In this document: one piece after another, positions 18,501-23,603 of the stretch
Layout of the letters: every line of letters starts with the position of its first letter
Position numbering within the stretch: the first letter of the stretch is position 1
Source of the DNA: Deltaproteobacteria bacterium
Lineage (GTDB): Bacteria > Desulfobacterota > Binatia > UBA1149 > CAITLU01
DNA length: 39,263 nt
NCBI GenBank assembly: GCA_016218925.1
Contig: JACRCR010000206.1
Span: forward strand, 1-39,263
Direction: 5' to 3'
Notes under the pieces: model-generated
Told to the model about the DNA's origin: nothing
Database searches by the model: none
What the model saw: only the letters and a program-made list of their open reading frames with translations
Position numbers and translations under genes: made by a program

Positions 18501-18769
18501 GCCAGCTAGCGACCGCCGAGTTCGTCGTCAGTAACCAGCTCGGCCTGCACGTCCGGGCCGCAGCGATGGTGGTGCGCACCGTCCAGCCCTACCAGAGCAA
18601 GGTGACCATCCGCACCGATGGCGGGATGGCCGATGCCAGCAGCGTACTCGACCTGCTGACGCTGTCGGCAAGCAAGGGCACCACCATCGTGGTCCGCGCC
18701 GAAGGACCAGACGCCGAGGCGGCGGTGGCGGCTCTGGGAAACCTCATTACCCGGAACTTCGCCGAGTAA
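18497..18769 (+). CDS. ptsH: HPr-family phosphocarrier protein
   Basis: 90 residues. The phosphoacceptor His18 is in LGLHVRAAAM. The second regulatory site region reads ADASSVLDLLTL, where Ser49 matches the Ser that HPr kinase modifies in other lineages. ATG overlaps the rapZ stop. With ptsN it makes a regulatory PTS, but no Enzyme I gene and no hprK are in the window, although hprK often lies between these genes in deltaproteobacteria. Confidence 0.93.
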   Translation: MSQLATAEFVVSNQLGLHVRAAAMVVRTVQPYQSKVTIRTDGGMADASSVLDLLTLSASKGTTIVVRAEGPDAEAAVAALGNLITRNFAE

Positions 18770-18777
18770 ACCGTCGT

Positions 18778-18806
18778 TTGACCCCCGTCTCCGGGCCTTG
18801 TAGCTA
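18778..18806 (+). promoter_or_regulatory. Promoter of metK, candidate leaderless start
   Basis: TTGACC (18778-18783), 17-base spacer, TAGCTA (18801-18806). The metK ATG begins 8 bases after the -10, so transcription would start at or within two bases of the start codon. No Shine-Dalgarno is visible. Confidence 0.55.
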
Positions 18807-18814
18807 TTCGCGCC

Positions 18815-19978
<1,164 letters not shown>

Positions 19979-19984
19979 AACCGC

Positions 19985-20045
19985 GAGGCGTCTTCGCCTC
20001 TCCAGCTTGCGCATCGCTCTCGGTCTCGCCGGCCCGGGGAGACCG
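19985..20045 (+). other. Two hairpins in the metK-ahcY intergenic region
   Basis: GAGGCG/CGCCTC with loop TCTT (19985-20000) begins six bases after the metK stop. A 7-bp stem CGGTCTC/GAGACCG with an 11-base GC-rich loop (20021-20045) follows. No T-run comes after either, so termination would need Rho. I find no SAH-riboswitch core here. Confidence 0.4.
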
Positions 20046-20101
20046 CCGTCACATCCACCGTACGGGCCGCTTCGAAGGGAGCCACCGGTGGCCTGCCGCA
20101 A

Positions 20102-20130
20102 TTGACGTTACATAAAGATATCCGTATCTG
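20102..20130 (+). promoter_or_regulatory. ahcY promoter with overlapping palindromic operator (SahR-type candidate)
   Basis: TTGACG (20102-20107), 17-base spacer, TATCTG (20125-20130). The palindrome AGATATCCGTATCT at 20116-20129 (arms AGATA and TATCT, 4-base centre) covers the spacer and the -10. A repressor there would block RNA polymerase. An ArsR-type regulator fused to a methyltransferase is encoded just after ahcY, and SahR, an ArsR-family regulator, controls SAM-cycle genes in Proteobacteria. Confidence 0.6.
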
Positions 20131-20189
20131 TCCATACCACTACAACGGCGGCGGCTCGCGGCGCCCGCCTTTCAGAGGAAGCACAAATC

Positions 20190-21608
20190 ATGTCCACGCA
20201 GACGGCTCCCAAGCCGAACCAGGATTTCTTCGTTGCCGATCTTTCGTTGGCGGGCTGGGGCCGCAAGGAGATCGCCATCGCCCAAACCGAGATGCCCGGG
20301 CTGATGGCGCTTCGCGAGGAGTACGCGGCGAGCAAGCCGCTGGCCGGCGCACGGGTGGCCGGCTCGTTGCACATGACCATCCAGACCGCGGTGCTGATCG
20401 AGACCCTGGTCGAACTCGGCGCCGACGTGCGCTGGGCCTCGTGCAACATCTTTTCGACCCAGGACCACGCTGCGGCGGCGATCGCCGAGCGCGGCGTTCC
20501 GGTCTTCGCCTACAAAGGCGAGAGCCTGGAAGAGTACTGGGACTTCAGCCACCGCATCATGGAGTGGAGTGACGGCGGTACCCCCAACATGATTCTCGAC
20601 GACGGCGGCGATGCCACGCTGCTCGTCATCCTGGGTTCCAAGGCCGAGACCGATCGCTCCGTTCTCGACAACCCCGGCAGCGAGGAAGAGACCGTCCTGT
20701 TCGCCTCTATCCGAAAGCGCCTGGCCTCCGACCCGAAATTCTATTCGAAGATCCGCGCCAACATCCGCGGCGTGACCGAGGAGACCACCACCGGAGTGCA
20801 CCGCCTCTACGAGATGCAGAAGAGGGGCGACCTGCCGTTCCCGGCGATCAACGTCAACGACTCGGTGACCAAGAGCAAGTTCGACAACCTCTACGGCTGC
20901 CGCGAGTCGCTGGTCGACGGCATCAAGCGCGCCACCGACGTGATGATGGCGGGCAAGATCGCCGTGGTCTGCGGCTACGGCGACGTAGGCAAAGGCTGTG
21001 CGCAGTCGCTGCGCGGGCTGGGTTGCAGGGTGTGGGTCACCGAAATCGATCCGATCTGTGCGCTGCAAGCTGCGATGGAGGGCTATCGCGTAGTCACCAT
21101 GGATGATGCCTGCAAGCAGGGCGACATCTTTGTCACCGCCACCGGCAACGTGCACGTGATCAATCACGCGCACATGCGCGCCATGAAACACGAGGCGATC
21201 GTGTGCAACATCGGTCACTTCGACAGCGAGATCGACGTGGCCGGGCTGAAGTCCTACCGGTGGGAGAACATAAAGCCTCAGGTCGACCACATCATCTTCC
21301 CCGACGGCAAGCGCATCATCCTGCTGGCAGAAGGCCGCCTGGTGAACCTCGGCTGTGCCACCGGCCACCCGAGCTTCGTGATGTCGAACTCGTTCACCAA
21401 CCAGGTGCTCGCACAGATGGAGTTGTGGCAACGGCCGGGCAACTACCAGAAGGAAGTCTACGTGCTTCCCAAGCATCTGGACGAGCAGGTCGCACGGCTG
21501 CACCTGAAGAAGATCGGCGCAAAGCTGACGCGACTGACCGATCGGCAGGCGGCCTACATCGGCGTGACGGCGGACGGACCGTTCAAGCCCGATCGATACC
21601 GCTACTAG
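20190..21608 (+). CDS. ahcY: Adenosylhomocysteinase
   Basis: 472 residues, the usual length for the longer bacterial form. It hydrolyses S-adenosylhomocysteine to adenosine and homocysteine with bound NAD. Key motifs are [35 protein letters not shown], and the NAD-binding [15 protein letters not shown]. The protein ends with the conserved [14 protein letters not shown] 20190 has AGAGGAA upstream at good spacing. It follows metK and precedes an ArsR-type regulator, forming a SAM-recycling locus. Confidence 0.97.
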
Positions 21609-21704
21609 CTCGGGACGACCTCGATGCGACGGCTCCATGCGCGCCTTGCTACCGGCGGCGGCGAAGTGCCGTCTCCTCGAGCATAGGAAGGCGGGCGCGA
21701 CGCG

Positions 21705-22655
21705 ATGGACGCTCTGCTGGCCGGCCTGAGAGCTGTCGCCGAGTCTACGAGGCTGCGCCTGCTGGCGATACTGGCCGGCGGCGAGCTGACCGTCTCGGAG
21801 ATCACGCGCGTGATGCATCAGAGTCAGCCGCGCGTGAGCCGGCATCTCAAGCTGCTGTGCGATGCGGGGTTGCTCGAACGCTCGCGCGAAGGCGCCTGGG
21901 CTTTCTATCGTGTGGCCCGCAGCAGCCACGGTGGCGGACTCGCCGCGGCACTGCTCGAGTTGTTACCCGAGGACGATGCCGGGCTGGCCCGTGACCGCGA
22001 GCGTCTGGCCTTGGTGCGCAGCGAGCGCGCCGAGCGCGCTGCGGCGTACTTTCGTGAGAACGCCGAGAGATGGGACAGCATTCGCGATCTGCATGTCGGC
22101 GAAACCGCGGTGGAGCAGGCGATGCTGGAGGCTGCGGGTGCGGGCGAGTTGCCCGTGCTCGGCGACCTCGTCGATCTCGGTACCGGAACCGGCCGTGTGC
22201 TCGAACTCTTCTCGCCGCGCGTCGGCCGCGGCACCGGCATCGATTCGAGCCGCGAGATGCTCAATGTCGCCCGCGCCAACCTGGGCGCCCGCGGCATCGT
22301 CAACTGCCAGGTGCGTTTGGGCGACCTCTACGACGTTCCTATGGAAAGCGGCTGCGCCGACGTCGTCACGCTTCACCACGTCCTCCACTTTCTGGACGAT
22401 CCCGCGGCCGCGATTCGCGAGGGTGCGCGTCTGCTGCGCCCGCGCGGGCGCTTGCTGGTAGTCGATTTCGCCCCTCACGCCCTGGACTTCCTTCGCACCG
22501 AGCACGCCCACCGACGTCTCGGGCTCGCCGACGAGGAGATGGAGAGCTGGTGCAAGAGCGCCGGCCTGGCCACATGCGAGGTCCGGCATCTCGAGTCGAC
22601 CGGCGCCAACTCCCACGAAACGCTGACGGTGTCGTTGTGGACGGCGACGCGCTGA
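21705..22655 (+). CDS. ArsR-family HTH regulator fused to SAM-dependent methyltransferase
   Basis: 316 residues. Residues about 1-80 form an ArsR winged helix (LRAVAESTRLRLLAILAGGELTVSEITRVM, then QPRVSRHLKLLCDAGLL). After a linker, a class I methyltransferase domain starts near residue 145, with motif I LVDLGTGTGRVLELF and the acidic GIDSSREML. The methyltransferase may act as a SAM/SAH sensor rather than an enzyme. Position 96 bases after ahcY, and the palindrome in the ahcY promoter, point to control of the SAM cycle. Its target and ligand are inferred, not shown. Confidence 0.88.
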   Translation: MDALLAGLRAVAESTRLRLLAILAGGELTVSEITRVMHQSQPRVSRHLKLLCDAGLLERSREGAWAFYRVARSSHGGGLAAALLELLPEDDAGLARDRERLALVRSERAERAAAYFRENAERWDSIRDLHVGETAVEQAMLEAAGAGELPVLGDLVDLGTGTGRVLELFSPRVGRGTGIDSSREMLNVARANLGARGIVNCQVRLGDLYDVPMESGCADVVTLHHVLHFLDDPAAAIREGARLLRPRGRLLVVDFAPHALDFLRTEHAHRRLGLADEEMESWCKSAGLATCEVRHLESTGANSHETLTVSLWTATR

Positions 22656-22889
22656 GGCACACGCGCACGCGCGACAGCACGACCCGCATATTTCGAGCGA
22701 AGAGCACCGAAGGTTGGTTCCTGCCTCTCCCGCCTCTTGTCAAAGTCGGGGCAGGAATGTTACGTGAGCGGTCGTCCCGCCGAGCGCCGCGAGCCCTTGG
22801 GGACACCACCAAGACCCGACGAGTTCCCCGGCACTCGCGGGTCATAACGACGGTCGACATTCAAAGTCCGGACCGAAATGGAGGGATCG

Positions 22890-23603
22890 ATGCACAAGCT
22901 GATTCGAAGTGCGGCCGGCGCCGCGATGATGATGGTACTGGGTGCAGCGGTTGCGTTGGCCGCACCGACGCCCGAGCAGAAGTGCCAACAATCGAAGTTG
23001 AAGGCGCACGGCAAGCTTCTCTCCTGCCTCGCGACCAACGAGGCGGGAATGATCGGCGGCAAGGACGACGCGTCGGCCACCTGCCAGTCGAAATTCACCA
23101 CCGCGATCGGGAAGGCCGATACCAAGGCGGCGGCCGCCTCCGCATCGTGCCGCATTCTAGACAACGGCAACGGCACCTTGAGCGACCTGAACACCGGGCT
23201 GATGTGGGAACAGAAGGACGGATCTGGTGGCGGGCCCAACTTCACCGATCCGCACGATGTGGACAACCAGTACCAATGGAGCAGCAGCGGAACCATTCCC
23301 GACGGCGATACGTTCACGGACTTCCTTGCCCAGCTCAATGGCGGCACTACCTCCGATGGCACGACTACCACCGGTTGCTACGCCGGGCGCTGTGACTGGC
23401 GACTGCCGACCACCGAGGAACTGCTCGCCCTCGGCATTGTCGGCGCTGCATTCCAGCCCGACGCCGGCTCGTATCACTGGTCAGCCTCTACCGACGAGAC
23501 CGTCCCGGCGAACGCGTGGATCGTGAGCACCGGCGGGGGGCTCCCGAACTTCGATCCCAAGACGACCGCCTATCCCGTGCGTGCGGTTCGTTCGGGCCCG
23601 TAA
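22890..23603 (+). CDS. Secreted DUF1566 (Lcl-type) domain protein
   Basis: 237 residues. A signal peptide (about 1-25, ending VALAA) precedes a Cys/Lys/Ala motif region (QKCQQSKLKAHGKLLSCLA...ATCQSKF). A DUF1566 domain follows: CRILDNGNGTLSDLNTGLMWEQ, then CDWRLPTTEEL, and a YPVRAVRSG end. DUF1566 domains occur in secreted, often lectin-like or structural, proteins of deltaproteobacteria. ATG 22890 has GGAGGG 4 bases upstream, so it is preferred over ATG 22878. I do not know its ligand. It stands alone between the ArsR-methyltransferase gene and rpe. Confidence 0.8.
   Translation: MHKLIRSAAGAAMMMVLGAAVALAAPTPEQKCQQSKLKAHGKLLSCLATNEAGMIGGKDDASATCQSKFTTAIGKADTKAAAASASCRILDNGNGTLSDLNTGLMWEQKDGSGGGPNFTDPHDVDNQYQWSSSGTIPDGDTFTDFLAQLNGGTTSDGTTTTGCYAGRCDWRLPTTEELLALGIVGAAFQPDAGSYHWSASTDETVPANAWIVSTGGGLPNFDPKTTAYPVRAVRSGP

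Follow-up and report, generated by a model that had tools for sequence, protein, structure and literature searches.

A 22-bp inverted repeat in the ahcY promoter of a Binatota bacterium is, we are confident, where a SahR-type repressor acts as on an operator; its gene is the second of an ahcY-sahR pair, and repression would be relieved by S-adenosylhomocysteine (SAH), a toxic methylation by-product, in a feedback loop. The operator sequence, its conservation, the family of the regulator, the gene order and the apparent uniqueness of the site in the genome all point to this reading. The window, the whole 39,263-nt stretch of DNA analysed, carries on its forward strand metK (18815–19978; TIGR01034, 553 bits), the S-adenosylhomocysteine hydrolase gene ahcY (20190–21608; TIGR00936, 626 bits), which its tree assigns to the proteobacterial type, and sahR (21705–22655), a 316-aa ArsR-methyltransferase fusion identified by HTH_5 and Methyltransf_11 matches above cut-off and by its tree. 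The last two are separated by 96 bp, as the initial annotation had reported for its fusion regulator. Directly after sahR, at 22878–23603, lies a gene whose product is probably secreted and carries an Lcl C-terminal domain.

The predicted operator in the ahcY promoter

A short palindrome over the ahcY −10 had originally been proposed as a 14-bp repressor site. The string, AGATATCCGTATCT, is indeed present at 20116–20129 (+), where it overlaps a plausible ahcY promoter in its spacer and −10, but its symmetry is incomplete: the AGATA and TATCT arms pair (5+5), and the TCCG centre between them is unpaired. Because the window holds 79 perfect 5-4-5 inverted repeats, two of them within the 211-bp ahcY leader, the 14-mer is by itself no more than chance would give and is not evidence for an operator.

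The longer element that encloses it is far beyond chance. The predicted SahR operator, TACATAAAGATATCCGTATCTG, spans 20109–20130 (+) and centres on GAT|ATC at 20119/20120, so that the original proposal was off by 3 bases in its centre (20122/20123) and by about 8 in length, the operator measuring 20–22 bp. A matrix built from 78 proteobacterial sahR promoters, with the window's own family left out, scores 20109–20130 at 24.1 bits. No window position clear of the operator exceeds −1.2 bits with the same matrix, and a simulated first-order Markov sequence of genome size (4.66 Mb) contains no site of at least 14 bits. The left half and centre, 13 consecutive bases (ACATAAAGATATC), are those of the proteobacterial consensus; the right half is degenerate, and the dyad pairs at 7 of 10 positions. 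Such pairing is common, with 292 20-mers reaching at least 7 of 10, and promoters are AT-rich, as would suit a palindrome that arose by chance in such a promoter and binds nothing. The 13-base identity with the proteobacterial SahR operator, and a core kept in three genomes whose leaders differ, make that very improbable. A literature search with the operator string returned only unrelated papers.

The operator is embedded in the promoter itself. The −35 box, TTGACG (20102–20107, +), retains TTGAC in two related Binatota genomes, and the inferred −10 box, TATCTG (20125–20130, +), follows after a 17-bp spacer and overlaps the right half of the operator. This −10 is weak, and a scan for the strict sigma-70 consensus called neither box, but the aligned −10 in one relative, G003, is TATATT. 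Occupying the promoter between TTGACG and the −10, a SahR dimer bound to the 20–22-bp dyad would keep RNA polymerase out. As for RNA-based control of the ahcY leader by an SAH or SAM riboswitch, an Rfam search of 18700–23000 with E up to 5 gave no match barring three unrelated chance hits.

Conservation in the two relatives, G001 and G003, fixes the extent and centre of the element. In both, the same ahcY precedes the same fusion gene, with AhcY 92% and 85% identical and the regulator 87% and about 61% identical to those of the window, respectively. Upstream of ahcY the sequences read TTGACATCATATAAAGACATCCATATGCGCCCATG in G001, TTGACTAAATATAAAGATATCGTTATATTTGCATG in G003 and TTGACGTTACATAAAGATATCCGTATCTGTCCATA in the window; TTGAC-N4-YATAAAGAYATC-NN-TAT is common to all three, and the rest of the leader differs. 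The G003 operator, the best in the family at 32.9 bits, is nearly perfectly symmetrical (AATATAAAGAT|ATCGTTATATT, 10 of 11 pairs); the dyad centre is therefore GAT|ATC and the element spans 20109–20130. These alignments also bear on whether the 14-mer might be a separate operator for another repressor, with its own centre at 20122/20123. Its five outer pairs are perfect in the window, but the aligned sequences in G001 (AGACATCCATATGC) and G003 (AGATATCGTTATAT) lose the AGATA/TATCT pairing, and we rejected the 14-mer as an operator and regard a second repressor there as most unlikely. The sahR gene of G003 (L036:1597–2550, −) contains an in-frame TAA at codon 39, within the recognition helix, which could mark a pseudogene, a strain variant or an assembly error.

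The SahR-type regulator and its probable effector

The regulator belongs with the proteobacterial SahR proteins. SahR is an SAH-responsive ArsR-family regulator of ahcY, metH, metF and metK (PMC4239095), and the window protein has the layout of the Sinorhizobium-type proteins: an ArsR-type winged helix (about residues 1–86), a long helix (92–128) and a C-terminal class I methyltransferase fold with an intact SAM/SAH-binding motif, DLGTGTG. An alignment-based structure prediction (pLDDT 92) finds its best PDB match in Rv2258c, a methyltransferase solved with SAH, which covers both domains in a different arrangement. A methyltransferase-fold sensor, initially thought unusual, is the usual SahR build. 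Identity is 50–61% with the closest proteobacterial proteins, reaches 62% with gammaproteobacterial ones, and is 47% with the sahR-metF gene of Sinorhizobium meliloti; the last value, together with nesting in the proteobacterial clade, makes the window regulator an orthologue of published SahR. The S. meliloti gene, which precedes metF, is 1023 bp long, and the same length is reported for sahR of Ensifer aridi (PMC8877191).

Proteobacterial sahR loci carry the same operator. We collected 80 loci, all but one proteobacterial or of the window's family, and metF lies near the regulator gene in 76 of them (we rely on the metF count alone, as the metH matches nearby include antisense frames). The site occurs 5' of the locus's own sahR in all 78 loci outside the family (consensus GATATAAAGATATCTTTATATC). 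It also precedes the sahR genes of S. meliloti and R. leguminosarum (both sahR-metF loci) and of M. bullatum, and among 24 ahcY promoters taken from these genomes 15 have it, for example AACATAAAGATATCTTTATGCT. The element at 20109–20130 before ahcY is, like these, a palindrome of about 20 bp at a SAM-cycle gene. The window system shares with the Sinorhizobium/Ensifer sahR-metF systems (PMC4239095, PMC8877191) its protein architecture, operator sequence and ahcY target. It differs from alphaproteobacterial SahR in its Binatota host, in a sahR that follows ahcY rather than preceding metF, in targets apparently limited to ahcY-sahR and in its degenerate right half-site.

Two operator types pair with two recognition helices within Binatota. 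The window regulator carries the helix QSQPRVSRHLK, as do proteobacteria with the ATAAAGATATC operator. Other Binatota with sahR beside ahcY encode regulators only 29–38% identical to it, with the helix PQSTVSRHLK, and all 17 main-clade cases of this kind have ATCCG-N6-CGGAT in their promoters. As a sequence pattern, this motif fits the ATC-10nt-GAT consensus common to gamma-proteobacterial SahR and SamR sites (PMC4239095); the window has no exact copy of it. These operons resemble that of the window in placing an ArsR-methyltransferase fusion beside ahcY and an operator at the promoter, but they differ in regulator, helix and motif and in having sahR first. The operator type varies in step with the regulator type, and this links the window regulator to the window site.

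Further fusions also occur in the phylum. Four in Binatota family f5 (L015, L019, L021, L024) do not lie beside ahcY and have AATATT-type dyads upstream (TGTGAATATCGCAATATTCGCA in L015), possibly representing a further subfamily with another target. A third, divergent clade (L026, L027, L028) has ATCAGGAT-like upstream sites in L026 and L028.

General ArsR/SmtB and arsenite methyltransferase models match the two halves of the regulator, as would be expected if it joined an ArsR sensor of metals or arsenic to a functional methyltransferase and sat beside ahcY by chance. But the arsenite methyltransferase match falls far under cut-off (56 vs 263 bits), the recognition-helix region LTVSEITRVMHQSQPRVSRHLK lacks the cysteine pair of metal-sensing ArsR/SmtB proteins, and SAM-cycle genes are neighbours in the window's and related genomes, leaving metal sensing with very little probability.

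The strongest alternative keeps the same repressor and operator and changes only the effector. SAM and SAH are both ligands of the class I methyltransferase fold, and the signal could be SAM or the SAM/SAH ratio, as suggested for SamR. SamR of Xanthomonadales, a distant SahR homologue on methionine/SAM genes, is proposed to answer to SAM, and it acts through a 24-bp motif on methionine-synthesis targets (PMC4239095). The window site differs in being of ATAAAGATATC type and in standing, apparently, before ahcY only. Its target is the enzyme that clears SAH, the regulator groups with proteobacterial SahR, and the SAM-synthesis genes have no site. We consider SAM as effector unlikely, though the least unlikely of the alternatives. 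SAH is the published SahR effector, SAM being only suggested for SamR (PMC4239095).

An apparently small regulon and its proposed feedback

The regulon is apparently reduced to ahcY-sahR. Published SahR regulons vary in size between genomes, and of the published core (sahR, ahcY, metH, metF, metK) only ahcY-sahR has a site here: metK, metF and metH have no operator upstream, and sahR has none of its own. Genome scans, made with patterns allowing mismatches rather than with the matrix, revealed no further credible site, although one may have been missed, the genome being about 94% complete. The sole other near match, AGAAAGATATCTTTCT at G000:C72 (13.6 bits), lies within an apparent clpP gene, and a second-copy match in G001 falls within an apparent ispG gene; we rejected both. 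The initial annotation had held that lack of a second copy near SAM-cycle genes would speak against the circuit. That absence does count against it, but is outweighed because the site is conserved before orthologous ahcY genes and matches proteobacterial sites. Also against the model stand the degenerate right half and the stop codon in G003 sahR. On balance the proposed SahR-type circuit on ahcY has good support: the phylogeny of the regulator, the operator match and the conservation of the site all favour it.

We propose that this arrangement forms a feedback loop. DNA binding by the regulator and SAH as its inducer are expected by analogy with the SahR family, in which SAH releases the repressor (PMC4239095; Desulfovibrio work as cited in PMC8877191); repression and co-transcription we infer. 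When SAH accumulates, it would bind the methyltransferase-fold domain and SahR would leave the DNA. AhcY would then be made and clear SAH. As sahR probably follows ahcY on one transcript, the repressor would rise alongside and close the loop.

Probable proteobacterial origin of the cassette

The cassette apparently originated in proteobacteria and took the place of a native ahcY. In both the SahR and the AhcY tree, the three family members fall within the proteobacterial side beside the same two genomes, labelled Gammaproteobacteria and Candidatus Muproteobacteria. The SH-aLRT support for this is 85 (SahR) and 98 (AhcY), in quick trees built without bootstrap. Another five genomes belonging to the same order (L185, L186, L187, L188, L189) carry a different ahcY behind rapZ-npr-metK, one only 39–40% identical to that of the window, and neither of the two SahR operator types turned up in these stretches. 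No ahcY follows metK in G001 and G003, where the cassette lies elsewhere, and a further full-length ahcY was found neither in these nor in the window's genome. The shared locus of metK and ahcY noted originally exists here, but the two sister genomes do not preserve their adjacency. Contamination is an unlikely source, because three separate genomes agree and because the metK/rapZ side of the window is of the family's own type (93% and 88% identical to G001, respectively). It appears somewhat probable that a self-contained, SAH-responsive cassette of promoter-operator, ahcY and sahR was transferred from Proteobacteria to a single Binatota lineage, supplanted the native ahcY after metK and was kept as a single-operon regulon in three chromosomal neighbourhoods.

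The regulatory mechanism itself is already understood in outline; new here are the phylum, a regulon of apparently just ahcY-sahR, and trees that place both genes among proteobacteria. The findings bring SahR control to Binatota, outside the Proteobacteria to which the published regulons belong, match two operator types to two recognition helices inside one phylum, and provide a fairly clear example of an enzyme gene that changed phylum in company with its own repressor and operator.
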